Assembly (NCBI GenBank): GCA_002794775.1
Contig: NBAY01000001.1
Span: forward strand, 2,170,001 to 2,234,000
DNA: 64,000 nucleotides
Origin: Porodaedalea pini
Lineage: Eukaryota; Basidiomycota; Agaricomycetes; Hymenochaetales; Hymenochaetaceae
Direction of reading: 5' to 3'
A program made the position numbers and the translations under genes. Under the pieces are notes generated by a model that did no database searches, was not told the DNA's origin, and worked only from the letters and a program-made list of their open reading frames with translations. Within the stretch, counting starts at the first letter, position 1. Every line of letters starts with the position of its first letter. Below, one piece after another: positions 2,951 through 55,531 of this stretch.

Positions 2951-2952
2951 TA

Positions 2953-4985
2953 CAGCCATTTTCATAAGTCCTGCAACACGTGCATTTCACATGAAATGAG
3001 ACGTGTCTGAGCCAAAACGTCGAAAAATAGAATAAATGTTGATTTTCTCTGTAAATTCTGCGCAGTACCTGCTCATTAAGTACTCAAAAAATAGGCATGG
3101 TTCTCAGGAGCAGAAATATGTAAAATAGGGAGCAATACATTGACTGTGTAGGTGGGTGGAGATCAAACAAGTGCAGCCAGTCTGTTCTCTCATACATTTC
3201 CACTGAGATTCAAAAATTATGGCTCCTCTACATCTACCTATAAAATTCTTTCCCATGACTGTAAATTAAGTATATGACTATACCAACAGCTCCTGCAAGT
3301 CTGAAGCCAATCCATGCAGTATTCATGGTGCAGCAGCAAGGTTTGTGTTCCACTTCGAGCTCTTTCCACCTTCCTCTTCTCACAACAGGTCTTGCAGCAC
3401 AGGTGAGAAGGCCGCTAAGATTATGATTCTTTTTGTGTAATTATCAGACACATAAGAGCCATCTTCCCTGCAAGTTTCCTGTCCATTCACTTTGTGCTTT
3501 GACTGCTACGCTCAAATTTCTGTGCATACTACCAACACCTGTGAGCACGTGAGCACATGTTAGCCAAGCCACTGCCATGCAAACATGAAAGCCAACACTC
3601 TACTTCCTCCTCCTCTCAGGTCATTCCATGATGGTTTCAGGCAAGGCACTCTCAGATGATGCAAGACACATCACATTCAGACTGTATCAGTCACAACTCT
3701 TTACCATGCATGACCTGGCCAGGGTAATAGATATCCATCAAGCAACAATCCACCAAACTGTTGCTCAACATGAGTGCATGGGGCATTTACGACAGGAGGA
3801 CACAAGGACTGGAAGACCAAGGTTGCTTGATTATGTGGATACACAGGTGAGTGCATTTTTTGAATTGTAATGACTCGCTGTGGCTAACTGAACTATAGTA
3901 TCTCTTGAGCACGATAGAGCATTGCAAGGACCAGTACTTAGACAAGGTGAGGGAGGAGCTGGAAAGGGTAACAGGCAAGAAGGTTTCAGACACTACAGTA
4001 TGGAGGTCTCTGTGCCGGGCTGGGTTCACTCTGAAGATGGTGTGGTGATGCTTATGGCTTCACATCAGCAAACTTACTCTGCTCAAGATATCAAAAAGGG
4101 CACTTGAATGCAGCAAGTCCGCTCAGCTCCGGTACACATTGAGAATGGGATCTCAATATGAGGCAGAACAGCTCGTCTTTGTCGACAAGAGCACATGCAA
4201 CCAACGTACCTTCTTAAGGAAGAAAGCATGGGCTTTGCAGGGTTATCAGGCATGTCAGAAAGTGATCTTTACATGGGGAAAAAGGTGCAATGCTTACCTT
4301 TATGACTGCAGATCTGACTGCTTGCCTCTTCTAGGTATTTGATCTTGCCTGCAATCACTTCAACTGGCATGCTTGACTGTACAATACTGGAAGGATCCTT
4401 CAATGCCACCTCCTTCTCCACATTTATCAGGGATCTCTTGGACCACATGCAACCTTGGCCAGCCCAAAACTCTGTCGTGTTGAGGGACAACTGCACAATC
4501 CACAAGTCACTGGAAATTTGCGAACTCATTGAGTCAAGGTCCATCTATTTTGACCTGTTGTGCTGCGAAGCAGGGCTCTTACTGATCTGACTCCACACAG
4601 GGGCATGAAGCTGGAATTTCTCCCCACGTATTCTCCGGACTTCAACCCGATTGAGCTGGCATTCTCTCTGCTGAAATCTCAACTTCATCAGGTCAAATTC
4701 AGTGATGAGGAAATGGACACTTTGGTATTCGCGAAGCTTTATGGTGAAACTATGTCTATCAGTGCTGCGGACTGTCGTGCTTTCTATCATCATTGCAGTT
4801 ATCTCTGTTAGTGTCAGGTTTCTTCATTGAGTGGATACAGGCTTCCTTGTCACTGTCTCAACTGGTCCAACAATGTAATATATTCTGTCTATATGATGTA
4901 CGCATAACTACTGTTCCTTGATGTGAGAAACATCCTCCTGCACATATCGAATGATATGATTGAGTAACCCAATGCTTGTCTCCAC
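2953..4985 (+). repeat. Left inverted arm of composite Tc1 element
   Basis: This arm holds the TIR, a ~675-bp subterminal region, the intact-looking transposase gene and, at its inner edge, the last ~25 codons of cargo gene X on the opposite strand. Similarity to the right arm is high through 4943 and becomes more divergent from 4944 to about 4985. Confidence 0.85.
3628..4811 (+). CDS. Tc1/mariner DD34E transposase (left-arm copy, apparently intact)
   Basis: Five exons join in phase: 3628-3846, 3899-4039, 4088-4284, 4335-4538 and 4601-4811, giving 323 aa. An N-terminal helix-turn-helix region (DLARVIDIHQATIHQTV, about residues 31-47) should bind the TIR. The DDE nuclease core shows D153 (LVFVDKS), D237 (LRDNCTIHKS) and E272 (YSPDFNPIELAF). 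There are 34 residues between the second D and the E, the DD34E spacing of the Tc1 family. It would act in the nucleus, cutting at the TIRs and inserting at TA. The gene points inward from the left end and converges with cargo gene X, whose stop is only about 100 bp away. Exon borders agree with the right-arm copy, which supports the splicing model. A few residues near catalytic motifs differ between the copies (VVLRDN here, VVVMDN on the right), so activity is uncertain. Confidence 0.8.
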
Positions 4986-6697
4986 TTGAGCATCAATAAC
5001 CATCTTCTCGAGCCTTCCAAATTCTAAGTAAGCCAAGTCATCCAAGCGTTTAACATCATTGGCCTCGAAAACAGGTAGCAGAGACCTGTATTGGTAGTCA
5101 TTGCGGCCTCTCTCCATGTCATCGTGCAATGATTCAATCCAATTCCAAACAGAAGGGTAATCACATGGCCTGCACTCAGTTATGCATTTTGTAGTGCTGG
5201 GCAATGACCGGCTGGTTGAAAGGTTGCATTGGCACTACAGTTGCCACTGTTCCGGCTGTCACAGGAGCACTGTTGGGGAGGGATGTTGTAGGCCCAGTTG
5301 CTATGTCAGAGCCAGTTCCTGTGCTGGCATTTTCAGCTGCTTTCCACTGCTTGTCCAATACTTTCAGTTGCCCCAGTACTTCGTTCACTTTGACTCTGGG
5401 AGTATTCTTATACTGGACAAAGTATGCTTTTAGTCCGGTGAGATTGCACTTTGTCAATGGACTCACAATCAGTTTTGCATGTTCAACAAGATGTTTGTTG
5501 GAATACATAAGATGGTCTTTTGACCCTCTTATTTTACCACAGAGCCTGCCATCGTGTTTATCACATTTGAACGCTGCTGTGATTTGTGCCATAATCCATT
5601 TGAGTACAGCATCATAAGCTTCCTTAGCACTGGTGACCCCTGAAGGAGTCGCATTCGTTCTAGTCGCACTTTGCTGTTTATTGCTGTTCCCATTGTTCCC
5701 ACGTGTATTCTTCACTGCATGTCAGGAACCACTTTATACATCAAATACTATAGACAAACCTGATTACTGAGATTCCAAATGACAATTCTGGGGTTTTCGT
5801 TACCTCGTTTCTTCTTCTTTTCAGCTGCTTGATGTCTGTGAACTTGTTTGAACAGTGTGTCCAACTGGTCTTGTGTATCCAAATATTCTGGTTCAAGCTT
5901 TGTCCCAGACTTCACAGACCAGCAAGCTGTGTAACCAAGTTGGTCAAATGTAGAACAGCCTCAGGTGATTGAAACCACTTCATTGATCAAATCAGCCAGC
6001 AACATCTTGGAGTTGATCTTCATGTCTCGCACACCAGTACTGTCATGAATTTTTACCATGACTTCCAGTTCAGGCTTTTTCTCTGTAGCAGGTGTCAATG
6101 TGATCCATTCATAAGCTTTTGCATGTCTAAGAGAGGGAGTATTCCAGTCCACGTACTCGCCAGCTATACTTTTCTTAGCCACAGCCTTAGGCAACAATGA
6201 ATGGAGGTTTCGTACCATCATCAAGATGGAAAGAATGCTCATCAGGCTTGTCAGGGGAGTCAGGAATTTCATCAAAGGCCGATCTGTCATTGTCAAAACC
6301 CTGCATTTCATTCATAGTGTCATTCAAGCCAAGTCCTGAAGCACGAACAATGTCCGCAATGGATATATCCTCCTGATCTTCAGGTGAATGCTCCTGTTCA
6401 ACTGTATCCTTGTCATTGCCCTTCTTGCACGGCTATGGGCATGAAAACTGGTCAGAGAGAGCATTTGCATCAAATTTCACAACTCACAGTTCAGCAGGTC
6501 GGCTTTGCTGTTGTAGCATATTTCTTCCCACTTGATTTCAACTGCTTTTTTGTGGGAGTTTCGGGGACCTGATTGGGGACTTCATTTTTTCTGGGGCGAC
6601 TAACAGGGCATTTCTTCATCTGCACAGCTAATTCCGCAGCTAGTTCTTCACCGTCTTTGAGTTTTTTGGACTTCTTTCTGACACGTTGAGGCAGCAT
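4908..6697 (-). pseudogene. Cargo gene X: uncharacterised protein, decayed
   Basis: A minus-strand reading starts at ATG 6697 (MLPQRVRKKSKKLKDG, a basic lysine-rich N terminus). It continues through an acidic segment (about 6420-6240), a segment with MKINSKMLLADLINEVV (about 6030-5965), a Lys-rich HQAAEKKKKR stretch near 5810, and a Ser/Thr-rich linker (5715-5176). The C-terminal region PSVWNWIESLHDDMERGR...RLDDLAYL (5140-5010) resembles a small helical SAM-like domain and ends SHIKEQ at 4908. A frame change near 6230 and an in-frame TGA at 5961-5963, with coding-like sequence on both sides, show damage unless unusual introns remove them. I do not recognise the family. It lies inside the transposon, divergent from gene Y, and its 3' end falls within the inverted arm. 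Confidence 0.5.
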
Positions 6698-7019
6698 TGT
6701 GGGGTCAGGAAAAGAAATGCAATTCGATTTCACTTAGAGCATTGGATGTTTTTGCTTACCAAATATTTTGGTACCTAAGCCTCCCAAAAGATGTCAGCGA
6801 CCTCTACCTCCTTCATGACTATTGCTTTCATGCCGACTGAGCCATTGTGGACCAAGGTTGAAGGTAGGGAACTGGCTATCCCAATGCGGCAAGAATACAA
6901 AAGGAGGGTTCAGGGCATCAAAATGCACCGGTCTCATCTTTATCTCTCGTCCTTCTTCTCCCATCCCCATCAATCTTGCTCTCCCACCTTATCGCTCACC
7001 CCTATAAGTACTCATTGCT
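6698..7019. promoter_or_regulatory. Shared divergent promoter region between cargo genes X and Y
   Basis: The ~320 bp between the X start (6697, minus) and the proposed Y start (7020, plus) must carry both promoters if the genes are expressed. A pyrimidine-rich stretch (about 6940-7005) precedes Y. No TATA box of good consensus was identified for either. Confidence 0.35.
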
Positions 7020-10000
7020 ATGGAAGGACAAGCTGGACGGCATCCTATGGATCCTTCCAGTGATATAGTCATAGTTAATGGTACAGAATAGATCGCCATG
7101 TTCTAAGTCTTTGGTGGCTTACAAACAGGCATTTTGTGTAGCACCCAGTGAAGTTCATGATCATGAAGATACCATAGAAGACTCTGAGCAGTTGCAAGAG
7201 GTGCTATCTGGTAAGCATATGTCTTCCCTGGTAAGTTCCATGGGCCCTTCTGACGTGATGTCAGATGAAGTTTCTTCTGAAGGACCTGCAGAGAATGATT
7301 CAAAAGGAAAGGGAAAGGAAGTGGCTCAAGAGAGTTCAGGGGAGGAATCTAGTCGTAGTAGCCATAAGTACTATTTATACAATTGCTGCGGGATCGTCCT
7401 GATGCATCTGTGCACTATTTTTCAGTGTCCAAAAGTGCAGCACTAAAGAAGCAGCTTGTTCAAGTGAAGGCATCACAGTCCTATGATGAACTTGTGGTAA
7501 TTGCAGAAGCAGCTGTTGCTAAGCATGGTTAGATTGAGGAAAAGTCAAAGCGGTGTAAAAAAATGTCTTCACACCAGAAAAAATTATGATTTTCTCTTGG
7601 CTAGGATAACCCAACTCGAGTCACAAATCCACACAAGCTTGGCCACCATGCTTCAAACTGTTCAAGATGTTGCTGCAGCCAATGAGGCACTTTCTTCAGA
7701 GGCCCAGGTCGGCCTTCTTATTGTCACGGATCGGGTTAATACGTTGGAGGAGAAAAGTGAACAAAGCAAAATCAATGCGCATCGAGTAGAAGATGAAATA
7801 CGTGGTGTACTTAGTCTTCATACAGATGCTATTCTCGGGGTAAAGCTCCTTCTCTAGTATCACTCTACTTGATTCTCACATTCTGATTTAGGAGCCTGAA
7901 GTGGCAGATAAGTTGCACCTTTGAAAATTAATCGAGGAAGGAAAGATTATACTCCTTATGGGATTCAGTGTTGTGGAGCGTGTCCTGCAGATTCACTACT
8001 GCTTGGGAAACACTTCAAATAATGAGGATGCCCGCAAGCCTAAAAGGATTCATTATTTCATCCCGATCGACCACTCTTGTATTCAGCAAAACACAGTGTA
8101 TGACCTATGGTCATCCGAACGGGTCTTGAGGGACCTTGTGCAGTGCACTCAAACCCCAAAGGCAGGCCCTGGCATGCCCTTTGAGGCATTCAAATCAATT
8201 GCCAATTGTTAGGTGGGAGTCCGGGAGACGACTTGGACTGGGCAGGCCTCGGCTGACTGTCGTCTGGGACGTGCTATACTCGAGCAGGGACTTGGGACAC
8301 ACTATACTCAGGCTAGGTCGTCACAGAGGTAAGAGGATTGATACAATATACTCTACTACAGGAGGGGGACGTGGTCTCACCTAGATTGTCACGGAGGTAA
8401 GAGGAAAAGCAGAACAGGTGTTCAGATGCGATTCCTCTTCCTTATATACAGTGATCACCTCATGAGAACCGGTTGCCCCATTGTCTAGAATTATATAATG
8501 GGAGTGGAATGGAACGAATGAAGGTCATGTGAAGGGAGTGTGGGAAATGATTAAAAAGATGATTAATTATAATGGAAAGGAGCGATTAAAAGAAAAGAAA
8601 TGATAAAAGGCAATTAAAAGAAGGTAAAAGTTCGAGTCCTGACACCAATATAACAAAAGACTACGCATTTGATCTCAGGCAACTCTATCCAAACTACGAC
8701 AGAGAGAAGGTAGTCCAAAACTTGCATGACTTGGTAGTTGCTTTTATGTGTGCTCATGAACGGCTGAGTTTCTGGGAGATGAACGCTTCACTTTCCTTTG
8801 CCATGAGGGTGGAACAGGCAGGATATGTAAATTGCAAAGCTTTCTGTGGCCAGGCCCAATACAGTGATGTGGATGCTTATGTTCTGGCAGAAGTTATTAG
8901 AAGCAGACTTCTGCAGGCATCCAAGATATCCACAGAGCTACAGGAGAAACCTGAGACTATGAGCAAAATTGAAAGTTTCATGGGCCACAAAGTGATGTGG
9001 ATTTTTGATCAGTATCAGCAAAAGTATAAAAAGAGTTGGCCTAAAAGAGGCTCTGCTCACTACTCCACGCACTCTTCCCAACTCTCTGACGCGGACTCTA
9101 CCCCTTGCAATACTATATTGGGCATGCAACTAGATTTGAAAGGGAGACTTACGTGCGATTCTGTCAACCGAATCGCATACATACTTCATCTCACCTTCAC
9201 GCAACAAAAAGAGGATGTGGATATCTTGTTTAGCGCTTCCCCGATACCGCAACTGGAGGGAACAGAAAAATATGATTTTAAGTCAGCCGATAGTCAAATG
9301 AGAGAATATGCCGGTCTTCTTGTGGGTCCTTGTAATGAAGCAAGCTTGTCATACAAAAAACTGGACAACTGAGTACTTCTCGCAGAGGCCAGTGCGCCAG
9401 TGGGCAGTGTGAAGCACTTGCTATCCAGGAATTACAGGAATCTTAGGGCATATATGCCTTTCATCAAGGACCTGTCTGTGCTATCAGCAGCTCTCAAACT
9501 CTTGGAGGGCAGAATTGCCAACATTCTATTGTGGGAAGATGCCTATGACTCACTTGTAATTGCATTACATGGAGGTGCCCATGATATGTCTGAGCCTGTG
9601 GAATCTTATGAAGCTGCAATAAATGCATTGGAGGAGCATGGCGTTTTGCAGGGGAAGTTTAAGGAGTGTGCTCCACATTTCAGAGTGATTTTGGCCGTCC
9701 AGCAGGGAATCAACATGCATAACAGTATCCCCGACAGACCTATAAGTGTAGGGTTCCCCCTTCCACATGTGGACAATGCAGTGCAATCCAGTGAACGGGA
9801 ATCCAGTGCATTGCAATCCTATCCGTCATCATCTGTGAACTCATTTTGCAAGTGTCCTGCTGACGATCATGCCCTTATGATGAGGCCAGAGAAAAAAAAG
9901 AATCGATTTGATTACCCGCATGATGAAGGCCCCTCTAATTCAAGAGGAGGCATGGCTCGTGGAGACACGTCCCCACCATCCCCCCCCCCACTTTGTCCTC

Positions 10001-10299
10001 ACTCCAGCCAGGCCCCTCTAATTTGTTTAATGCCGGAAGGGGAGGCACAGCTCATGGAAACACATCCTGGTCCCTCCTCACTTCATCCTCGTCCCGGCCA
10101 CCTCCCCCCATTGACTGGGATCAGACTTACAAGAACTACAGAAGAGAGGGTAGAAGAGAGGGTAGAAGCGACCGGAAATGGAGACACAACCACCACTCCA
10201 GAAGAGAGGATAGAGATGACCAGAGATGGGAATACAGCTACTCCAGAAGAGGGGGTAGACGTGGACATCACTGAGAGAGTTCCAGAAGAGTTGCTCTGA
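7020..10299 (+). pseudogene. Cargo gene Y: large uncharacterised protein, interrupted by a solo LTR and stop codons
   Basis: Coding-like segments run in order: an acidic Ser/Glu-rich N-terminal part (7140-7360), a predicted coiled coil (7600-7840, RITQLESQ...VNTLEEKSEQ), a segment ending FEAFKSIAN at 8206, the solo LTR 8207-8644, then a resumption in the same protein (DYAFDLRQLYPNYDRE) to 9369, and finally 9373-10299. An in-frame TGA at about 7922 and another at 9370-9372 (LDN-stop-VLLAEA, most simply a former TGG Trp codon) break the frame. The last ~130 residues are Pro/Ser-rich and include repeated EERVE/EERIE motifs encoded by near-repeats at 10140-10250. I do not recognise the family. 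It is the main cargo between the two transposase arms. Confidence 0.5.
8207..8644 (-). repeat. Solo LTR related to the Gypsy LTR at 13073/19883
   Basis: The sequence is the reverse complement, with considerable divergence, of the LTR at 13073-13532. It begins TGTTAGGTGGGAGTCC and ends GAGTCCTGACA. A 5-bp duplication CCAAT flanks it (8202-8206 and 8645-8649). No internal retroelement sequence is present, so this is a solo LTR left by LTR-LTR recombination. It sits inside cargo gene Y and splits its reading frame. Confidence 0.85.
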
Positions 10300-12035
10300 C
10301 ATCACAACAATGACCTCAAGGCATTGTAGCACTCTATCTATGCTTAGGCGTCAGCTGTCCCAGCATACCACCCGCTTTATTTATTATTATATACAGATAC
10401 AAACTCCATAAACATGGTCAAGCACTTTGTTTCATCACCGTCTATCTTACACTTTGCATTTCACGCGCTCAAATGGTCACACTTGCCCATTCGAGTGTCA
10501 ATATACCTTTGAAGTTCTCATATTATCCCTTAGTAACCTCATAAATATGTTCAAACACTTTCATACACCCACTCTAACACTCATACCACTTCCTATTCAC
10601 ACTTGAACGCTTCGTTTCCTTTATATTCATCCCATATCACACTATATATGTGCTTGAGGACTCTATCCACTTCATATTCACTCGTTCGAACATTTGTAGC
10701 ACAGCCAGATCACACAGTTGGGCTCAGGGAATGCATTGGGTTCCAGCAGGGGTCACTCAAACAGTCCTCGGGCCGCCGACGTTCAATGTATCACGCTCGA
10801 ACGACTGGATTCCATCATTCACTGCATTCTCCATGTGGCTCAAGCATTATTTATCATCGTCTATCACTCCCATGATGTGCATTCATTGCCATCACACCCT
10901 TGGGGGCATTTGGGGATGTTTGAATGGAGTTGTTCGGAGCACACATGATAAGTTTCTTGGTTTCATTGGTCTTCTCCTTGATGTTGAACCATTATTCCCC
11001 TTCAAGTTCGTGATATATCATGTTCTTGAGTCATTCCATCCCTAACATATGACTATTCTGACTTGAACATGCACTGCATGCAATCCTCTACCTCCGTATG
11101 TACGCTCGACATCGGTACCAAGCTTGTTTCGACTAGAGTATAAATAGTGCACACCTTTGTACTGATTCTGCAGAGGGAATACAGCCCCCAGTTCACTCCA
11201 CAGTACACATTTCAAGTCTCATAAGTTGTTCGCACCTTCAGATCGCCTCTGCTCAGCTCTACCAAACTCCCCCAACCACTCAAATAGCACGTTCAACTCA
11301 TCACATATGCTCAAAATCAGAATTCCAAGGCTTTGAGCACTAGACACACCCAACAGGGTATCGTACCAGCATATCCCCATCACCCCGCACATTCGTGACC
11401 TACTAAGAAGCCGTTCGAGCGTATTGGAGTACACACGAAGGCTCTCGAGCACGTTTTCGAGCGCGTTCGAATGCTCAACAAGCCCCGACCGGAGATTCAA
11501 ATCATCTGAGGCAGTTTAATACAGCCCCGCACCTACCTCAACTTCAGACTTCAACCGTTCAAGTCACAGGGTCTGCGTTAGGAGCTCAATTCTAATGAAT
11601 TTGAGCACTTTGGCAAAGCCTCTGGACCAGTAGAGCCACTGTTTCGAATGTTCGATCACTCCATTTCTATTTGGTTGTCCTTCCTCAACTATTGAGCCAC
11701 CGCAGTCTCCCTTGGGAAGAATATAGATTCGCCCTTGAGTTGACTGTTCGGTCCACAAAAGAGTCTGCATTGCAATAGTGTCCAAGGTGGTCACTGGAGC
11801 GGCGGTAATGAGGAGGGACTCCAGCATGGATCAAATCGGTCTGAACAATCAGACACATGCTCTCGCATAGCCTCAAATCCTTTTGTCTACTATTTCCTTT
11901 TGTATTCCTCCTACTAAGTCTTCTTTCATACAGAAATACCAGGGTTTTGTATGATTAGTTGTGTAGAATGTACATTTTATTTATTCAATGATTGAAGTTT
12001 ACTGCTAGAAAGTGACCATGATGATGGAGTGCATG
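10300..12035. other. 1.7-kb non-coding segment inside the composite element
   Basis: No protein-like frame is present. Short motifs containing CGAAC or GTTCGA recur many times (10480-11500), and a TATAAATA lies near 11140-11147, followed by a CA-rich stretch as in an LTR promoter. I looked for TG...CA ends with target duplications and found none that were convincing, so its origin is open. Confidence 0.4.
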
Positions 12036-12204
12036 ATGTTCTGCACCACTCAACTCATTGTCCATTGCTACAATAGCCTTTGGGCATGGCAAGACTGCAT
12101 ATGGTCCAAGAGTGAAGGATGCAGAGGTCGAGACAAGTCTTGCATTACTCACTCACACTATTCAATATGCGCAGGAGGATGTTTCTCACATCAAGGAACA
12201 GTAG
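12036..12204 (+). pseudogene. C-terminal remnant of a second copy of cargo gene X
   Basis: An open frame ends VETSLALLTHTI...AQEDVSHIKEQ-stop at 12202-12204. The left gene X ends VETSIGLLNHII...VQEDVSHIKEQ at 4908. The match covers about the last 25-30 codons and is more divergent than the rest of the arms. No upstream part of X is recognisable. This places an X-type gene 3' end beside each transposase copy, as expected for an inverted duplication followed by loss or replacement of one X copy. Confidence 0.6.
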
Positions 12205-13072
12205 TTATGCGTACATCATATAGACAGAATATATTACATTGTTGGACCAGTTGAGACAGTGACAAGGAAGCCTGTATCCACTCAATGAAGAAACCTGACA
12301 CTAACAGAGATAACTGCAATGATGATAGAAAGCACAACAGTCCGCAGCACTGATAGACATGGTTTCACTGTAAAGCTTCACGAATACCAAAGTGTCCATT
12401 TCCTCATCACTGAATTTGACCTGATGAAGTTGAGATTTCAGCAGAGAGAATGCCAGCTCAATCGGGTTGAAGTCCGGAGAATACGTGGGGAGAAATTCCA
12501 GCTTCATGCCCCTGTGTGGAGTCAGATCAGTAAGAGCCCTGCTTCACAGCACAACAGGTCAAAATAGACGGACCTTGACTCAATGAGTTTGCAGATTTCC
12601 AGTGACTTGTGGATTGTGCAGTTGTCCATCACCACGACAGAGTTTTGGGCTGGCCAAGGTTGCATGTGGTCCAAGAGATCCCTGATAAATGTGGAGAAGG
12701 AGGTGGCATTGAAGGATCCTTCCAGTATTGTACAGTCAAGCATGCCAGTTGAAGTGATTGCAGGCAAGATCAAATACCTAGAAGAGGCAAGCAGTCAGAT
12801 CTGCAGTCATAAAGGTAAGCATTGCACCTTTTTCCCCATGTAAAGATCACTTTCTGACATGCCTGATAACCCTGCAAAGCCCATGCTTTCTTCCTTAAGA
12901 AGGTACGTTGGTTGCATGTGCTCTTGTCGACAAAGACGAGCTGTTCTGCCTCATATTGAGATCCCATTCTCAATGTGTACCAGAGCCGAGCAGACTCGCT
13001 GCATTCAAGTGCCCTTTTTGATATCTTGAGCAGAGTAAGTTTGCTGATGCGAAGCCATAAGCATCACCGCAC

Positions 13073-13532
13073 TGTTAGGACTCGAACTTTCATCTTTTCT
13101 TTTATTTTCCTTTGACCATTTCTTTTCTTTTATTTTCCTTTGACCATTTCTTTTCTTTTAATCACTCCTTTTCATTATATTTAATCATCTTTCCAATCAT
13201 TTCCCACACTCCTTTCACGCGACCTTCATTCGTTCCATTCCTAGTTACATAAACTATACAGCACTTAGATAATACTCTCCCATGGACGACACTATATAGA
13301 GGAAGGTGGAATCGCAGAAGCCCCCTGTTCTGCTTTTCCTCTTACCTCCACGTCGTCCAGGTGAGACCACGTCCCCCTCCTGTAGTAGAGTACATTGTAT
13401 TAATCCTCTTACCTCCATGTCGTCCAGCCTGAGTAAGCGTGTCCCGAGTCTACGCTCGAGTATAGCATGTCCCAGGCAACAGTCAGCCGAGGCCTGCCCA
13501 GTCCGAGTCGTCTCCCGGACTTCCGCCTAACA
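13073..13532 (+). repeat. 5' LTR of Gypsy element
   Basis: 460 bp, bounded by TGTTAGG and CCTAACA. It carries two copies of a 28-bp pyrimidine-rich unit (CTTTGACCATTTCTTTTCTT core, about 13100-13160), where the 3' LTR has one. A TATA-like CTATATAGAGG lies near 13292. The sequence after the LTR (TAAAAGCAGAAC) is not an obvious tRNA primer-binding site. Confidence 0.9.
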
Positions 13533-14119
13533 TAAAAGCAGAACCTCACCCAGGCTCATCCCCAGCGTACGTCATCACTGTTGACTCGCCTTCACTCGGT
13601 CTAGAGGAGCGCTCCCCTCGATGGACTTGACGTGTAAACCCCCTAAACGACAACCCTCAACCCTGCCCGGACGTTTTCGGATGTTTGTGTATTACGTAGA
13701 CATCTCAACTGACATTTCCTGACCCTGGCTCTACGAATTAGCCTCTGGTGGAGCACGCACCTAATGTGGACGTGGGTAACCAGACGAGTCCAAACTTCGA
13801 TGACAATCTCGTTTGTGATCTCACTCGGATCCTACCGCCTCGTCATCAACTTCGCTGATGAACCCGTTCAACGTTGGTGTAACCCCAGATCGAACGCACA
13901 ACCGATCCCTGTCCCTCCACCAATGTCAAGATAGATCTCACCGACGAACAGCAATGGGCCCTTCCTGCTTCAGCCCGTTGGGATCCAGACCGACCAGGCT
14001 ACGTTGTGACCAATAATAGCGGCGTCACTCACGACATCTGGTGGAGTGAAATCCGGTGCAGCTGGTATTCATCAGACGAATGAGGAAGGAGAGCAAGGTG
14101 GCCCCCAGCTGCTCCATCG

Positions 14120-15325
14120 TTGCCTGCACCATCGACGTCCACGGTCAACCTACCACCGACCCCAGGTCCTTACCGCGAGACTAACAGAGACCCCTCACCA
14201 CCAACTCCCCCGGAACCTTCAACACCCGCACCTGAACCTGCCATGTCAGCAGAAGGTTTCAGCCAACAGCAGATGGCGCAGATCGCGGCCATCATCGCAA
14301 ATGCCTTCACCCATCAGGTGAACAACGCCCCGGCACCGGTCACGGCTGCTAACCCCCCGACCCCCAACATAGACGTCGCCCGGCCACGAGAATTCACTGG
14401 CGGCGACGACTACCTAGACTTCAAGCGCGAGGTCCTTCTTTTCATCTCCGCGAACCCGAACAGATACCCCACGTCAGAGAGTAAGATCTATGTTGCTCTC
14501 TCCTACTTGAAGGGTGGTAATGTGGCGACATGGGCGCAGAATTACGTAGAGGAATCAACGATGGCCGGCATCGTAACCTTCACCGATAGCTGGACAAGAT
14601 TCCAAGAGCACCTGGACGCCTCGTTCGACGATCCAAACTGGAAGGAAAAGGCGCTGGCGAAATTCCGGACCAAGGTTCAGAAGGACCTTACCGCCGATGA
14701 GTTCTTCCAGGATCTTGACATCATCATCACAAGAGCAGGTTTAACGGACAACAGCATCATCTGTGACCGACTGAAGCAGGCAATGAATATCGAAGTAGTG
14801 AGAGGGGTACTACGGTCGACGCCAGTCCCGACGACGTATGAAGACTGGAAGAAGAAGGCAATCGAGATCGACCGGGGCGAGCAACAGATTCACGCCATAC
14901 AATGAGGCTGCGCCTTCCCACCCCCACCACGCCCACCGCAGCAGCATGGACCCCCAGCTCGTCGCCAGGTGACTGCCCCCCATGTTGACAAATGCGATGC
15001 GACAGGCATCACATTTGGAGGAGCTGGCCAGCTGATGGACGTCTCCATGAATGAGGTGCACCGCCGACGTGCGTGCTGGATATGCGGCCAGCTCGGTCAC
15101 TTCAAGGACACGTGCCCGCAAGGGAAGATGATTGTGCAGCGTATGCTGTGGATGATGGCGCCGGGAGAATGTCGTCTAATTGCCGACGAGCTCGGTGTGA
15201 TGAAGGAGTCAGCCTTCGAGGAAGTCATGGACACTCGAAAGACGACGGTGGAGGACTATGCAGAGGAGGAAGGAGATGACGAAGAGGTCGTCGACTCACA
15301 GGGTTTTGCGAGTGGTCAGGCGTAG
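14120..15325 (+). pseudogene. gag: Gypsy gag (capsid and CCHC zinc knuckle) with one in-frame stop
   Basis: The frame is open from at least 14120; the first ATG is at 14243 (MSAEGF). It has a Pro-rich N terminus and then a retrotransposon capsid region (REFTGGDDYLDFKREVLLF, later FQDLDIIITRAGL). An in-frame TGA at 14903-14905 is followed in the same frame by a proline-rich linker and the knuckle CWICGQLGHFKDTC (about 15076-15117), so the stop most likely replaced a CGA codon. The frame ends at TAG 15323-15325, overlapping pol. Gag would form the virus-like particle; the knuckle would bind the element's RNA. Confidence 0.8.
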
Positions 15326-15343
15326 CCACCGGGGCGACTGACC
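15301..15343 (+). promoter_or_regulatory. Candidate -1 ribosomal frameshift site at the gag-pol overlap
   Basis: In the gag frame the bases read G GGT TTT at 15301-15307, which fits the X XXY YYZ slippery pattern. Pol is in the -1 frame and is open from 15301 onward. Six bases later GGTCAG (15314-15319) pairs exactly with CTGACC (15338-15343), with a GC-rich loop that could pair further. The gag stop lies 15 nt past the heptamer. Confidence 0.6.
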
Positions 15344-17770
15344 GAGAAGAACAAGGGACCTCGTATCTGGACTCTATAAAATATAACCAACCATCTGTAC
15401 AACACATAGATGCAAATGACGTCGATGGTTTTTCTGATTACGAAGTCCCCACCGGTGTGAACAAAAAGAAGGAGTACGATCAGCTGTTCATGAGGGGAAC
15501 TGGCGGATGCCAGCTGGACCTCCTCCTGAACGTCGGATACAATGTGGAAGGTGAAGTGAAAGAGGTAGATGCGCATGCCCTCGTGGATTCGGGGTGTACG
15601 GGATCGTGCATCGACGTGAGGTTCGTCGAGAAATACGGGTTAGAGACCAAGTGTTACATCAGACCCCTTGCGGTGCTCAATGCGGATGGCACGCACAACG
15701 AGGCCGGTTTGATTGAGAAGTACGTTGACGTTGAGCTAATAATTGGACACCACAAGGAAAGGATCATCCTTGTGGTAACATCCCTGGCATCGTCCAACGT
15801 CTTCCTTGGCTACGACTGGCTTCGACGTCACAACCCTGAGATCGACTGGAAGATAGGTACACTCGACTTCACCCGCTGTCCGGGCAAATGTGTGGTGGAG
15901 AAGGTCGTAGAAGAAGGCGTGCGGAAGGTGTTGAGAGCAGTGGAAGAGACAAGGAGGGTGAGAGAGGTGCAAATGGACAAGACGTCCTGGCCCGCATACC
16001 TCAACGACTACGCCGACGTTTTCTTGGAGAAAGGATTTGAGAAGCTGCCGGAACACCGCCCGTGGGACCACGTCATTGACCTGAAACCCGACTTCAAGCC
16101 TAGCGACTGCAAGATCTACCCGCTGACACCGACGGAACAGCAGTCGCTAAAGGACTTCCTCGAAGAGAATCTGAAGTCAGGTCGTATACGAAAGTCGATC
16201 TCACCGATGGCGTCACCCTTCTTCTTCATCAAGAAGGCCGACAAGTCACTACACCCAATCCAGGACTACTGTAAGCTCAATGACGGTATGATCAAGAATA
16301 AGTATCCCCTCCCTCTCATCGACGAACTTGTTGACAAGGTCAAGAAAGCGAAGTACATCACTAAGCTTGACCTTCGCTGGGGATACTACAATGTCCGGAT
16401 CCGCAAAGGTGATGAATGGAAGGCAGCGTTTCGTACGAACATGGGCCTCTTCAAGCCAACGGTCATGTTCTTCGGTCTTTGCAACGCGCCAGCAACGTTC
16501 CAAGTGTTCGTCAACCACATCTTCAAGGGACTGATCTACGACAACCTGATCATCGTCTATCTCAACAACATCCTCATTCTTTCGCAAACTCTTGAGGAAC
16601 ACATTGAGACGTCGAGGCGCGTCCTCCAGATCCTGCGAGAAAACGGCCTGTACCTGAAGCCAGAAAAATGCGAGTTCGACGCCAAGACCGTGAAATACCT
16701 TGGCCACATCGTCGGCAATGGCGAAATCAGGGCTGACCCGGCAAAGACTGAGGCAATCGCAGACTGGCCAGTCCCGCGAAACCTCAAGCAACTGCAGCAA
16801 TTCCTCGGCATGGGCAACTGGCTGCGACGGTTCATCAAGGACTACAGCAAGGTGGTCCATCCACTGACATTGCTGATGGGCAAGAAGGACTGGGTATGGG
16901 AGACCGAACAGCAGGAGGCATTTGAGGAGTTGAGACGATGTCTCTGCTCACCTCCAGTCCTGGCCATCGCGAATGATGAGGGCCCTTTCCGCGTTGAAGC
17001 GGACTCATCAAACTTCGCTCTTGGAGGAGTGTTGTTGCAAAAGCAGGAAGGCAAATGGAGGGTAGTCACCTACAGGTCGGAAGCGCTCCTACCAGTGGAA
17101 CGAAACTATGAGATCTACGACAAGGAGATGCTCACGATCGTTTCGGCACTCAAGGAGTGGAGACAGTACCTCCTCGGAGCCCGTCACCCTATCAAGATCT
17201 GGTCTGATCACGCCAACCTCACGTACTTCAGGTCGGTGCAAAAGCTGAGCTATCGACAAGCTCACTGGCGGACAGAGCTCGAAGAATTTGACTTCCACCT
17301 CGAGCACAAGTTGGGGAAGACAATGGGCAAGGCAGACCTACTATCGCGCAAGGCAGGCTACGACAAGGGCCAGGATGACAACGACGGCGTCGTGTTCATC
17401 AAGGAGAAGTGGTTGAATCATGGAGTCGTGAGGACGTCACGTGATGAGGTGTTGGACAAAGTGGGTGAAGCGCAGAGGGCGCAACACGAGTCGGAGAGGC
17501 CGACTGGGATGACGGAGGTCGATGGCTTGTGGCGAATGAAGGGCAAGGTATACGTACCATCGTCAATGAAGGAGGCCGTATTACGGGAATGTCACGACTC
17601 AGTACTGGCTGGACACCCAGGAGCATCGAAAATGGTGGAACTTGTCCGACGAGACTTCTGGTGGACGTTGATGTTCTCCGACGTCAGAGCGTATGTCCGA
17701 GGGTGTGATCGCTGCCAGTGGACAAAGGCTCTGAGGGCGTCGAGGTCGAGGCCACTTCACCCGAACACGG

Positions 17771-18698
17771 TGTAGATCCTGACTTAGGGGTGTCTGGGAT
17801 CAACGGTCCTTTTGGGGACGTGATCGCATTGCTCTGGGAGGTTAGGGGTAGACTGCGGTGAGATCACTCGATGTACCGGTACGCGTCGGTACACTTTGGT
17901 ATGCGCCGGTACGTGTTGATATCGAGAACAAAGGTCAGGAACTCCTGTCGCATCTGTGGTTTGACCGGTACGGAGTCGGTACGCGCAGGTTATCAACACC
18001 GGTACGATGTGATCACGACGAGCGGCGAGGTTCGAGTTACGAAGTATGAGACGAGAGACGGTTTCGAAAGACGAGATGCTAAGACGAAGACGAAACGACT
18101 ACAAGATTACGAGAACAAAGACGGATCGCACTCAAGTTACCCTATCTGAGGGAGACTCTGCGGTAGAACTCACTTGTCCTCTACCTACAACATGGGGTGC
18201 CTATTTATACTAAGTCCAAAGATCTATCTACAGTTAATAATTTCCATACGGGCATACTGTGCATATCAGTCGAAACATAGAGAAGTCGAAAGGAAAAGTC
18301 ATAGGTCATAGAGGCGCACATAGAGTGCATAGAAATCAGAAGAACATAGAAAAAAAAACATAAATCATAATGAGGAAAATGTCCGCTTCACGTCCGATCA
18401 CACCGGTGCTCCACCGGAACTCAGATCGTCCAATTGGTACGTGGCTCCCGTCATCGGACAGCAGTCCGGTACGCGTCTTGGCTGTATGCTCCATGTGACC
18501 GCGTCCCTAATCGTCGAGATAAGATCTCCGGTACGTTCCGGTATGCTTTTGGAGGTGTCGGAACGTGCTGATGACGCAATCGCGAGGTTCTGATTCGAGA
18601 CCGGACCGATCGGGTTGACTGATCGGTATGCGTCGGAACCAGTTCTTGAATGCTTCTGGAGTGATCGGCGGTGATGGGATGATCGGCACGGCTCTACA
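17771..18698. repeat. Solo LTR of a second family (TGTAGA...TCTACA) inside Gypsy pol
   Basis: 928 bp beginning TGTAGATCC and ending GCTCTACA, flanked by the 4-bp duplication ACGG (17767-17770 and 18699-18702). It has a TATTTATA motif near 18201 and many YGGTAC motifs. No internal domain is present. It is about 90 percent similar to the copy at 20656. Orientation relative to transcription is not certain. Confidence 0.85.
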
Positions 18699-19882
18699 AC
18701 GGTCCCGGAAGGCCCATGGGAAATTGTCACGGTCGACCTCATCGGAGAACTCCCAGACTCCAAGGGGCACAACGCAATCTGCATTTTCGTCGATAGGTTC
18801 TTGAAACAGATGCACGCGATCCCGACAATGACAAAGTTGTCGGCGGAAGGCATGGCTCAACTGTACCGTGACCACGTCTTCCGCCTCCACGGCTTACCGA
18901 AGAAGATCATCCATGACCGAGGCACACAGTTCGACGCATCGATGATGAAGGAGCTGTACAAACTCCTACACATCAAAGGCAACCCGTCGATGGCGTATCA
19001 CCCACAGACAGATGGTCAGACGGAATGTGTTAACCAAGAGCTTGAACAGTATCTTAGGCTCTTCGTGAACCATCGGCAATCGGACTGGAAGGACTGGCTC
19101 TCCCTCGCAGAGTTCGCGTACAATAACCGCGAGCATTCAGCAACGAAGATGTCCCCTTTCTACGCGAACACAGGACGTCACCCCGGGAGCTTTGACATGA
19201 CACGAACCTCGTCTACCAACATGTCGGCGGAAGAATTCGCGAAGCACATAAAGGAGACTCATTGTGTTGCAAAGGTCAACCTGGTCAAGGTGGCGGACGA
19301 CATGAAACGCTACCACGACCGGACAGCAGGGATTTTGGTTGAGTACAAGGCCGGGGACAAGGTTTTCCTTGATGGGCAAAACATCAGCACAGATTCGCCG
19401 ACAAAGAAACTCGCTGACAAATGGTATGGCCCCTTCGAAATTGTCGACAAGGTGGGAGCAAGCGCATACAAGCTCAAGCTCCCAAAGCGATGGAAAAAGG
19501 TCCACCCAGTCTTCAACGAGGCCCTGCTAAAGCCCGCTGTCAAACCGTCCTTTGAGAGCCAAAGACAACCAGCACCGCCGCCACCTGACATCGTCGACAA
19601 CGAGGAGGAGTACGAGATCGAGGAGGTTCTAGACTCGCGTCTGCACCGAGGGAAACTACAGTACCTTGTTAAGTGGGTGGGATACAATGAACCGACTTGG
19701 CAGCCTGAGATGGACTTTGGCGAGAATGCAAAGGAGGCAATCGCTGAGTTCTATCGAAAACACCCTGGCGCTCCTCGAAAGCTCGACATCCCTCGCCAAC
19801 AACTCCGCCCACGCTTCATCAACACCGAGCCAGACGACCTCGATCTTGGTTGGTCGGGACGCCCAACCTTGAGGGGGGGTAA

Positions 19883-20314
19883 TGTTAGGACTCGAACTTT
19901 CATCTTTTCTTTTATTTTCCTTTGACCATTTCTTTTCTTTTAATCACTCCTTTTCATTATATTTAATCATCTTTCCAATCATTTCCTACACTCCTTTCAC
20001 GCGACCTTCATTCGTTCCATTCCTAGTTACATAAACTATACAGCACTTAGATAATACTCTCCCATGGACGACACTATATAGAGGAAGGTGGAATCACAGA
20101 AGCCCCCTGTTCTGCTTTTCCTCTTACCTCCACGTCGTCCAGGTGAGACCACGTCCCCCTCCTGTAGTAGAGTACATTGTATTAATCCTCTTACCTCCAC
20201 GTCATCCAGCCTGAGTAAGTGTGTCCCGAGTCTACGCTCGAGTATAGCACGTCCCAGGCAACAGTCAGCCGAGGCCTGCCCAGTCCGAGTCGTCTCCCGG
20301 ACTTCCGCCTAACA
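19883..20314 (+). repeat. 3' LTR of Gypsy element
   Basis: 432 bp, matching the 5' LTR except for one fewer 28-bp unit and six base differences. It overlaps the last ~40 bp of pol and is preceded by the polypurine tract at about 19871-19879. Confidence 0.9.
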
Positions 20315-20655
20315 CGCACCGTCTTCAGAGTGAACCCAGCCCAGCGCAGAGACCTCCATACTGTAGTGTCCGAAACCTTCTTGCCTGTTACCCTTTCCAG
20401 CTCCTCCCTCACCTTGTCTAAGTACTGGTCCTTGCGATGCTCTATCGTGCTCAAGAGATACTATAGTTCAGTTAGCCACAGCAAGTCATTACAATTCAAA
20501 AAATGCACTCACCTGTGTATCCACATAATCAAGCAACCTTGGCCTTCCAGTCCTTGTGTCCTCCTGTTGTAAATGCCCCATGCACTCGTGTTGAGCAACA
20601 GTTTGGTGGATTGTTGCTTGATGGGAATCTATTACCCTGGCCAGATCATGCATGG

Positions 20656-21589
20656 TGTAGATCCTGACTTAGGGGTGTCTGGGATCAGCGGTCCTTTTGG
20701 GGACATGATCACGTTGCTCTGGGAGGTTAGGGGTAGACTGCGGTGAGATCACTCGACGTACCGGTACGCGTTGGTACGCTTCGGTACACGCCGGTACATG
20801 TCGATTTTGAGAACTAAGGTCGGGAACTCCTGATGGGTCTGTACTTGACCAGTATGGAGTCGGTACACATGGGTAATCAACGCTGGTATGGTGTGGTCAC
20901 GACAAGCGACGAGGTTCGAGTTACGGAGTAAGAGACGAGAGACGGTTTTGAGAGACAAGATGCTAAGATGAAGATGGAACGACTACGAGTTTTATGAGAA
21001 CTAAGATGGGTCGCACTCAAGTTACCCTATCTGAGGGAGACTCTGCGGTAGAACTCACTTGTCCTCTACCTACAACATGGGGTGCATATTTATACTAAGT
21101 CCAAAGATCTATCTACAGTTAATAATTTCCATACGGGCATAATGTGCATATCAGTTGAAACATAGAGAAGTCGAAGGGAAAAGTCATAGGTCATAGAGGT
21201 GTGCATAGAGTGCATAGAAATCAGAAGAACATAGGAAAAACATAAATCATAATGAAGAAAAACGTCCGCATCGTGTCCGACCATACCGGTGCTCCACCAG
21301 AACTCAGATCATCCAATCAGTATGTGGCTCCCATCGTCGGACAGCAGTCCGGTATGTGTCTTGGCTGTATGCTCCATGTGACCGTGTCCCTAATCGTCCA
21401 GATAAGATCTTCGGTACGTTCCATCATGCATTTGGAGGTCTCAGAACGTGTTGCTGACGCGATTGCGAGGTTCTGATTCGAAACCGGATGGATCAGATTG
21501 AGTCCGGTACTGATCGGTACATGTTGGAACCAGTTCTTGAGTGCTTCTGGAGTGATCGGCGGTGATGGGACGATCAGCACAGCTCTACA
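20656..21589. repeat. Solo LTR of the TGTAGA...TCTACA family in the right Tc1 arm
   Basis: 934 bp, TGTAGATCC to CTCTACA, flanked by the 4-bp duplication ATGG (20652-20655 and 21590-21593). It splits exon 1 of the right transposase copy. Removing it with one ATGG restores exact colinearity with the left arm, which independently confirms the borders. Confidence 0.88.
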
Positions 21590-22541
21590 ATGGTAAAGAG
21601 TCGTGACTGATACAGTCTGAATGTGATGTGTCTTGCATCATCTGAGAGTGCCTTGCCTGAAACCATCATGGAATGACCTGAGAGGAGGAGGAAGTAGAGT
21701 GTTGGCTTTCATGTTTGCATGGCAGTGGCTTGGCTAACATGTGCTCACGTGCTCACAGGTGTTGGTAGTATGCACAGAAATTTGAGCGTAGCAGTCAAAG
21801 CACAAAGTGAATGGACAGGAAACTTGCAGGGAAGATGGCTCTTATGTGTCTGATAATTACACAAAAAGAATCATAATCTTAGCGGCCTTCTCACCTGTGC
21901 TGCAAGACCTGTTGTGAGAAGAGGAAGGTGGAAAGAGCTCGAAGTGGAACACAAACCTTGCTGCTGCACCATGAATACTGCATGGATTGGCTTCAGACTT
22001 GCAGGAGCTGTTGGTATAGTCATATACTTAATTTACAGTCATGGGAAAGAATTTTATAGGTAGATGTAGAGGAGCCATAATTTTTGAATCTCAGTGGAAA
22101 TGTATGAGAGAACAGACTGGCTGCACTTGTTTGATCTCCACCCACCTACACAGTCAATGTATTGCTCCCTATTTTACATATTTCTGCTCCTGAGAACCAT
22201 GCCTATTTTTTGAGTACTTAATGAGCAGGTACTGCGCAGAATTTACAGAGAAAATCAACATTTACTCTATTTTTCGACGTTTTGGCTCAGACACGTCTCA
22301 TTTCATGTGAAATGCACGTGTTGCAGGACTTATGAAAATGGCTGTAAACTAGATAGTACAGAATTTTAATCAGTCTCAACAAAAAAGGAGCGAGAAGGCA
22401 TAATTTGGTCCTGAGAATAGTGCAGAGGCGGATAGAAAAGGCGCACAAAGAAGACACAGGATAGATAGATTGGTTGACAGGTGTAAGGTAGACAAGAGGT
22501 GCATGCCGAAAGCATAGGTGAATGGGCTGTCATTATGATTA

Positions 22542-23300
22542 CAGTGTTTTTCATAAGTCTTGAGACACTTGAGATTTGTGATTTTTGTCACACAGAGTAC
22601 CTCAAAATACAAAACTTGCTATACCTTGGCAAATATTTGACTGTTTTGCATCATCTAAGTTAAAAAATTCATGGTTTTACAATTGGTTTCAAATCCCAGC
22701 AAGGACAAAGAGAAATGAGCCAGTATTGAGTGAGATATGTTGTAAAATGCTGATTCTGCATGTATTTCTCATGTGCATTTTTTCCTGGCCTCATCCTTGG
22801 TCTTACAGCTCTCCAGACAAGACCAAAATGATAACATGATTTTATTGTGAATTTATAGACTGAATTTGAGCTCTATACTGTGGTGTATCTGCTGGTTTGA
22901 TGCATCCCTGAGCTAAGCTCAAACCTATCTTTTCTCCTAGTCTCTCAGACCTCAAAATAAATTTATTCTTAGGAGTGTTGACATCTTTAAATTCACATTA
23001 TTATAATCACACCACTTTAGTACAGTCTAGGGTGTTGTGGAATCCAGTCTGAGGTCAGGAAAAATGTGCATGAAGGATGTGTCTAAATTTGGCATTTTGC
23101 AACATATCTCACTCAATTCTGATTCATTTCTCTTCATCCTTGCTGGGATTTGAAACCAATTGTAAAACCATGAATTTTTTAACTTAGATGATGCAAAACA
23201 GTCAAATATTTGCCAAGATATAGCAAGTTTTGTATTTTGAGGTACTCTGTGTGACAAAAATCACAAATCTCAAGTGTCTCAAGACTTATGAAAAACACTG
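22542..23300. mobile_element. Foldback miniature TA element (MITE), 759 bp
   Basis: The ends are inverted repeats starting CAGTGTTTTTCATAAGTC, flanked by TA (22540-22541 and 23301-23302). The inverted arms extend well over 150 bp each: the block with CTCAAAATACAAAACTTGC recurs inverted near 23230. The terminal bases resemble those of the giant Tc1 element (CAG.. TTTTTCATAAGTC), so a related transposase may have mobilised it. No coding capacity is seen. It lies 196 bp from the giant element's right end. Confidence 0.8.
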
Positions 23301-54693: not shown

Positions 54694-55531
54694 CAGCCAT
54701 TTTCATAAGTCCTGCGACACGTGCATGTCACGTGAAGTGAGCCGCGTCAGAGCAAAATGTCAAAAAATTAGAATGAATGCCTATTTTCTCTGTGAATTCT
54801 GCACAGTACCCACTCATTAAGTACTCAAAAAAAAGCATGGTTCTCAGGAGCAGAAATATGTAAAATATGGAGCAATACATTGACTGTGTAGGTGGGTGGA
54901 GATCAAACAAGTGCAGCTGGTCTGTTCTCTCACACATTTCCACTGAGATTCAAAAATTATGGCTCCCTACATCTATCTATAAAATTCTTTCTGTGACTGT
55001 AAATTAAGTATATGACTATACAACATCTCCTGCAAGTTTGAAGCCAATCCATTTAGTATTCATGGTGCAGCAGCAAGATTTGTGTTCCACTTCAAGCTCT
55101 TTCCACCCTCCTTTTCTCACAACAGTCTTGCAGAGTAGAACACAAATCTTGCTGCTGCACCACAAATACTGAATGGATTGCTTCAAACTTTCAGGAGATG
55201 TTGTATAGTCATATACTTAATTTACAGATACAGGAAAGAATTTTATAGGTAGACATAGGGAACCATAATTTTTGGATCTTAGTGGAAATGTATGAGAGAA
55301 CAGACCAGCTGCACTTGTTTGATCTCCACCCACCTACACAGCCAATTTATTGCTCCTATTTTACATATTTCTTCTCCTGAGAACCATGCCTTTTTTTTGA
55401 GTACTTAATGAGCAGGTACTGTGCAGAATTCACAGAGAAAATAGCATTCATTCTAATTTTTCGACACTTTGGCTCTGACACGGCTCATTTCACGTGATAT
55501 GCACGTGTCGCAGGACTTATGAAAATGGCTG
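54694..55531. mobile_element. Foldback MITE derived from the ends of the giant Tc1 element
   Basis: 838 bp flanked by TA (54692-54693 and 55532-55533). Each half is about 415 bp and corresponds to 2953-3400 of the giant element, in opposite orientation, meeting near 55135. The TIR CAGCCATTTTCATAAGTC is identical. There is no transposase, so it depends on the enzyme encoded in the giant element's arms or a relative. Confidence 0.88.

Follow-up and report, generated by a model that had tools for sequence, protein, structure and literature searches.

Can a Tc1/mariner element, the textbook minimal transposon, carry a full transposase gene in each of two inverted arms and further genes between them? 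The question is raised by a 64,000-nucleotide stretch of the genome of the fungus Porodaedalea pini (GenBank assembly GCA_002794775.1, contig NBAY01000001.1, positions 2,170,001 to 2,234,000), referred to here as the window. Its positions 2953-22344 hold a single copy of a Tc1/mariner-type DNA transposon, in the order terminal inverted repeat (TIR), transposase arm, cargo A, cargo B, inverted transposase arm, TIR. The right arm carries two retroelement-like insertions. The copy is aged, and both cargo genes are damaged in it. The original prediction, made from the letters of the window, had described a giant composite transposon with TA-flanked outer TIRs, inverted ~2-kb arms each with a five-exon DD34E transposase, no inner TIRs, and later insertions in the right arm. 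These features were all borne out; the word composite fared less well, as discussed below. The reading that we favor, with a probability of about 0.83, is that of a cut-and-paste Tc1/mariner transposon, one end of which was duplicated in inverted orientation, leaving arms with a full transposase gene around a core of cargo A and cargo B.

An inverted-repeat comparison within the window aligns the two arms in three pieces: an outer pair (2949-3707/21590-22348) that is 100% complementary, a middle pair (3698-4042/20317-20661) at 96%, and an inner pair (4040-4994/12118-13072) at 97%. The inner pair is close only over 4045-4951/12161-13067, where 18 of 907 sites differ. As positions 4952-4994 have diverged already (12 of 43 sites differ), the arm proper is about 2.0 kb: 2953-4951 on the left, and on the right, from outer to inner, 22344-21590, 20655-20317 and 13072-12161. 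The 28-bp TIR, allowing up to three mismatches, is found in the window at 2953 (plus strand), at 22344 (minus strand) and at both ends of a miniature inverted-repeat transposable element (MITE; 54694-55531, one mismatch). Inner copies were not found at this threshold in the window, where 0 matches are expected from 100 shuffles.

Both interruptions of the right arm are real. One is a long terminal repeat (LTR) retrotransposon (13073-20314) with the target-site duplication CGCAC, read directly from the sequence; its Retrotrans_gag match lies just under threshold (23.1 bits against a cut-off of 24.1). The other (20656-21589) is solo-LTR-like, with TG...CA ends. The prediction had put the unit without them at ~10.8 kb. 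That figure still includes two further inserts: cargo B contains a solo LTR (8207-8644), and another ~1.46 kb has been inserted at about 10325-11780. Full copies without interruption measure 9288-9405 bp.

The spliced transposase is 321 residues long and matches DDE_3 in Pfam (8.8e-31), with a D-to-E spacing of 34 by hand count on the translation. Matches in the N-terminal helix-turn-helix region are weak and under the Pfam cut-offs (HTH_32, 3e-6; HTH_Tnp_Tc3_2, 4.7e-5). A search of the sequences of solved structures gave no match up to E 0.1, and a search of viral contigs gave no relative. By its DDE_3/DD34E enzyme and its TA duplication the element is, on this sequence evidence, a member of the Tc1/mariner superfamily. 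It does not follow the canonical single-gene Tc1 plan, being 9.3-9.4 kb long with two transposase genes and ~2-kb arms.

Copies of the unit and likeness of their arms

The host genome (53.3 Mb in 201 contigs) was searched with several parts of the element. The core gave 41 matches, or about 39 distinct places. The transposase gave 75 first-look candidates, close to 2:1 relative to the cores; among the best 40 of the 75, which were scored, 32 fall in 16 facing pairs, 12 of them with equal bit scores. A 302-bp arm query gave 47 matches (best 40 of 913 candidates scored). Fourteen full copies were compared: the window copy, C46, C148, C65, C7, C10, C39, C24, C4, C12, C5, C110, C35 and C5b (C5:1347900-1357450). 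Each of the 14 has two inverted arms of ~2 kb that end in outer TIRs, with TTA/TAA as the flanks, and those longer than the uninterrupted size bear inserts. Four more fetched places were left out of this count. Two of them, C6:1294079-1299702 and C6:1039932-1048776, looked like single-arm copies and turned out to be MITEs with inserts; the other two (L053 and L054) are taken up below.

Among the copies examined no single-arm autonomous copy was found, nor, by eye among 100 of the 499 TIR positions, any single-arm element with a second TIR of its own; close facing TIR pairs in that sample lie ~0.8-1.3 kb apart. Inner exact TIRs were also absent from the 13 copies scanned, except for the end of a neighboring MITE at C24. 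Exact TIR ends number 499 genome-wide, and since T precedes the TA in 460 of them, TTAA is evidently the preferred target. Two copies, C4 and C12, are nested in arm-type sequence of the family itself, so that the target can be read from the interrupted sequence: the halves match the arm query at 2/3-130 and 129-302, and their overlap at 129-130 places TA on either side of the insertion, as a duplication. (In a third nested case, C19, only the left half is among the matches listed.) The empty target corresponds to TTAA at 3076-3079 in the uninterrupted arm of the window. As read from these copies, what moves is the whole unit bounded by its two outer TIRs, inserting at TTAA with duplication of TA. 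The presence of 14 full copies at different loci, together with the nested sites of C4 and C12, indicates a mobile unit rather than two independent insertions. The prediction, which had taken the whole as the transposable unit and called for full copies and empty sites elsewhere, thus stands; nowhere in what was examined does the cargo look like host DNA fixed in place between two insertions.

The two arms of a copy are far more alike than are arms of different copies. Over ~2000 bp the divergence is 0.37% within a copy (pooled) vs. 2.45% between copies, and over a 1.36-kb stretch of the transposase the means are 0.46% and 3.0%. For all 28 arms the closest relative is the partner arm; the differences that remain between partners range from 0 to 34 in ~2000 sites. 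Defects are shared as well: both arms have the same premature stops in C7, C46, C10, C12, C5 and C5b, and both have a catalytic residue altered in C65 (E to K) as well as in C10 and C5 (N for the first D). The five-exon structure is maintained, with GT-AG kept at all four introns in 28/28 arms. A TGA that seemed to interrupt the transposase in all 28 falls in an intron. Inserts have left gaps or missing parts in the transposase of some arms; in seven arms it is free of both gaps and stops.

Six arm insertions are present, in 5 of the 14 copies. Three occupy the same base in both arms. In C4 a 936-bp insert, labeled solo LTR by its ends, stands on each side; in C35 an insert of 6253 bp, a retrotransposon by its reading frames, stands opposite a 419-bp solo LTR; in C110 a 412-bp solo LTR stands opposite 6240 bp, taken as a retrotransposon by length and LTR-like ends. 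The other three are confined to a single arm: two belong to the window copy and one to C24. In the window copy the three arm pieces have diverged unequally: 2 of 755 sites differ in the outer piece, 11 of 323 in the middle and 18 of 907 in the inner (outer vs. middle, p = 7e-5; outer vs. inner, p = 0.0011, with the outer piece computed as 2/749). The simplest reading of these sequences is gene conversion from arm to arm, impeded wherever an insertion interrupts pairing. Parallel CpG mutation was considered for the shared changes and rejected: it would not make a copy's own arms closer to each other than to foreign ones, and it leaves the insertions unexplained.

Arm similarity falls at about position 2000 in the window and in the 13 other copies checked. 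In those 13, past a shared motif, 17-20 bases differ within bases 10-60 and 42-46 within the next 50. A match of 29-33 residues to the end of cargo A (61-70% identity) survives at the inner edge in 36 places across the genome; in the window, homology to cargo A is lost upstream of it. From these remnants we infer that the inverted duplication probably once reached deeper into cargo A, with the outer ~2 kb alone still being homogenized.

Core genes and a second family

The core encodes cargo A on its minus strand and cargo B on its plus strand. For both genes Pfam gave nothing above cut-off, and single-sequence structure models of pieces of them were unusable (mean pLDDT 33 and 39). In the window, cargo B is broken by the solo LTR and by a stop at 9370-9372. 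Its last exon has 645-675 residues in most uninterrupted copies. A short repeat in that exon, SGREDRDYQRREYSY, varies in copy number (L042 2665-4959, copy C12), so that among uninterrupted copies the reading frame ranges from 645 to 765 residues.

Differences among copies are mostly C-to-T or G-to-A changes at CpG (cargo B, 171/236; cargo A, 69/89; transposase, 89/105), which points to methylation decay following a recent burst. A raw pN/pS of 0.49 for cargo B in young copies might be taken for purifying selection, but the mutation spectrum alone suffices to account for it. Transposase stops are somewhat fewer than expected in the family-1 polymorphism (3 vs. 5.5, p = 0.03), family 1 being the family of the window copy.

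The argument for cargo A comes from elsewhere in the genome. Outside family 1, its protein found about 25 places at 24-40% identity, many of them adjoining DDE_3 matches in facing pairs. This second family was sampled at one locus, C97. Its transposase is 43-67% identical to that of family 1 at the amino acid level, its two arms show no difference in the 372 bp visible up to the point where the right arm is interrupted by an LTR, and its cargo A exons match those of family 1 at 38-47% (with a rough cargo A query). Here, too, cargo A is convergent to the transposase. Over the stretch tested, blastn found no DNA similarity to the window. The C97 transposase, used as a DNA query, gave 12 facing pairs, seven with equal bit scores (best 40 of 59 candidates), and the outer arm gave 14 facing pairs at most 36 kb apart, eight with equal bit scores (best 40 of 89). 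At C100 the unit is ~8.66 kb by its coordinates, and its ends read TTA followed by CTGCCCCTATCAGAAGTATTG, with 14 of 21 bases as in family 1. Going by these comparisons, two well-separated families have one plan in common, and in both of them the transposase has kept cargo A as its neighbor. Since it stands beside the transposase in so divergent a family, random freight is unlikely, and the comparison suggests that cargo A is a long-kept gene of the element. The prediction's two genes unrelated to transposition are unproven as such. No cargo A clearly away from such elements was recognized, though not every match was traced. The search with cargo B found only family-1-like cores, save one match at E 0.08; for a second-family cargo B the evidence is positional, a plus-strand frame at L057.

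The features of the window copy are collected in Table 1. Family-1 MITEs, such as the one listed last, are ~820-850 bp long and consist of two joined arm ends; they are the commonest close TIR pairs in the sample of 100 viewed by eye. Another palindromic MITE, of 759 bp, adjoins the element at 22542-23300. Its TIR, TTA followed by CAGTGTTTTTCATAAGTCTTGAGACAC, is a third related type, and its arms are 85% alike over 318 bp.

Table 1. Features of the transposon copy and of a related MITE in the window
Feature	Position	Strand	Basis or remark
Left TA target-site duplication (T-TA, then CAG...)	2951..2952		TTA/TAA flanks in 14/14 copies
Left arm: TIR CAGCCATTTTCATAAGTCCTGCAACACG and transposase gene, ~2.0 kb homogenized	2953..4951	+	diverged homology on to ~4994
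DD34E transposase, five exons	3628..4811	+	exon model mapped to window by offset; Pfam
Transposase exons	3628-3846, 3899-4044, 4099-4284, 4335-4538, 4601-4811	+	mapped exon model
Cargo A, multi-exon	4908..6697	-	C-terminal exon ~4908-5721, with stops here; last codons inside arm
Cargo B, multi-exon	7047..10274	+	start codon a guess
Insertion of ~1.46 kb, between cargo B and right arm	10325..11780		gap against reference copy C7, which lacks it
Second cargo A 3' end, inner edge of right arm	12109..12201	+	query residues 244-274, 68% amino acid identity
Right arm, inner piece, 3' part of transposase	12161..13072	-	arm alignment
Gypsy-type LTR retrotransposon in right arm	13073..20314	+	target-site duplication CGCAC
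Right arm, middle piece	20317..20655	-	96% to 3698-4042
Solo-LTR-like insertion (TGTAGA...TCTACA) in right arm	20656..21589		sequence ends
Right arm, outer piece, and right TIR	21590..22344	-	inverted-arm match, TIR scan
Right TA target-site duplication	22345..22346		sequence
Palindromic MITE, 838 bp, family 1, two arm ends joined	54694..55531		90-91% to outer ~400-445 bp of arms

Weighing the explanations

The favored reading can be put as a series of steps. Duplication of one transposon end in inverted orientation would have given a ~2-kb arm with a five-exon transposase at each end. The enzyme from intact copies would bind the two outer TIRs, the sole ones, and move the 9.3-kb unit, and it may move the palindromic MITEs in trans. 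The arms would serve each other as repair templates through gene conversion, which would keep both ends matched and cause the two transposase genes to be kept, or lost, together. Cargo A may be an accessory gene of the transposon. More tentatively, at somewhat below even odds, the two families may represent a self-templating palindromic lineage of Tc1/mariner with arms kept by conversion, much as in sex-chromosome palindromes, in which movement of a 9-kb unit depends on the core genes, or on cargo A at least, as accessory factors.

Several observations weigh against the favored reading. At L053 (C139) and L054 (C23) a pair of arms was not seen in the fetched 10 kb; the former is an old core with no arms there, and the right end of the latter lies beyond the fetched stretch. 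Copy-private variants occupy both arms at 50 sites and one arm only at 28; 13 of the 28 belong to the window copy, with its interrupted right arm. A narrower count gives 33 both-arm and 23 one-arm variants, 14 of the 23 in the window copy. In all three genes, nonsynonymous and synonymous counts within family 1 fit a neutral model with a CpG-rich spectrum, and current selection in this family is hardly shown by such counts. Finally, a search at E up to 10 turned up no cargo B in the second family.

Of the alternatives, the likeliest is that cargo A and cargo B were host genes caught by chance and carried as passengers. The lack of Pfam matches, the neutral-looking polymorphism and the finding of cargo B with family-1 cores only would all suit it, but the convergent cargo A, at 24-40% identity, beside the transposase of a family with no blastn similarity to the window over the stretch tested does not, nor does the failure to recognize cargo A clearly apart from elements among the matches traced. 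We regard it as unlikely, at about one-third the weight of the favored reading or less. Distinctly less probable is the idea that each transposition or gap repair forms the second arm anew on the template of the first, by template switch or hairpin, so that arm identity measures the time since insertion. Shared stops, shared insertions and arms closer within than between copies are expected on this idea too. However, a single clock poorly fits the unequal divergence of the three pieces in the window copy, and a long element opposite a solo LTR, as in C35 and C110, needs copying after insertion, within the lineage of the copy.

Two further explanations have very little probability. Very similar inverted repeats are difficult to assemble, and one arm might have been duplicated or polished onto the other in the assembly; against such an artefact are the differing flanks with TTA/TAA on both sides, the constant inner boundary, the absence of N from the window, the sites at which partner arms differ, and again the long element opposite a solo LTR. 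Least probable of all is a bacterial-style composite, in which a pair of single-gene Tc1 elements, having inserted independently and in opposite orientation on either side of host DNA, now move together. Inverted transposase genes do stand on both sides of non-transposase genes, as it requires, but inner TIRs are missing from the window and the 13 scanned copies (the MITE end at C24 aside), single-arm elements are missing from the copies and TIR positions viewed, the same core recurs at about 39 places, and a second family has the same plan. Separable insertion sequences, which the word composite in the original prediction implies in its bacterial sense, were not seen; the arms look like one duplicated and converted end.

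Relation to known systems

In a bacterial composite transposon the flanking insertion sequences each own two ends, whereas the arms here lack an inner TIR. What the two have in common is a transposase gene on either side of cargo (PMC6431247). The Teratorn-like elements, described as piggyBac/herpesvirus fusions with internal TIRs and viral genes (PMC10175614, PMC6431247), are likewise large eukaryotic DNA transposons with long inverted repeats, and an intermediate framed by two transposon copies has been proposed for them. Their piggyBac transposase, internal TIRs and viral genes, as described, have no counterpart seen in the present element.

Long inverted ends are also the mark of the foldback-type elements Galileo, FARE, Tm1 and Tetris, and in Tetris, homogenization of the end repeats has been suggested in two of the three elements that are complete (PMC3169594, PMC4079207). 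According to these accounts, foldback-type elements belong to other transposase superfamilies. Their transposase generally lies between the TIRs and is not known to lie inside each. For elements of the present kind, TIR divergence would not be usable as a simple age clock. Exchange between transposon ends would instead be directly readable from about 39 natural cores, and an unusually clean record of it is the pairing of a long element with a solo LTR at mirror-image sites.

Within the superfamily, canonical Tc1 elements are described with TIRs of ~30 bp, a single open reading frame (ORF) and a mean length of ~1300 bp, and Minos, also DD34E, with TIRs of several hundred bp (PMC7325037). The present element shares TIRs and a DD34E transposase (as in the Minos group) with them and differs in inverted repeats of ~2 kb that hold the transposase, in a 9.3-kb unit and in two more genes. 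Among the closest parallels, compared by description rather than by sequence, is the TBE of the ciliate Oxytricha, a Tc1/mariner element of ~4 kb by the paper's totals, with TIRs of ~100 bp (117 and 112 bp in TBE2.2), the target-site duplication ANT for TBE1, one DD34E-type transposase gene and two extra ORFs (22 kD and 57 kD, functions unassigned) between the TIRs, one of them reversed (PMC4724952, PMC7325037). It thus resembles the present element in combining a DD34E-type transposase with extra ORFs, and differs, as far as those descriptions go, in being without duplicated transposase arms. The prediction had supposed the arrangement to be undescribed. This probably holds for the combination: the titles and abstract openings listed in searches of the literature (Repbase and subscription papers being outside the scope) yielded no Tc1/mariner element with transposase genes in both arms. 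It does not hold for the extra genes, which are already known from the TBEs (PMC4724952). What seems new is the combination and, if our reading is true, the Tc1/mariner superfamily can grow into multi-gene elements outside the ciliates as well.

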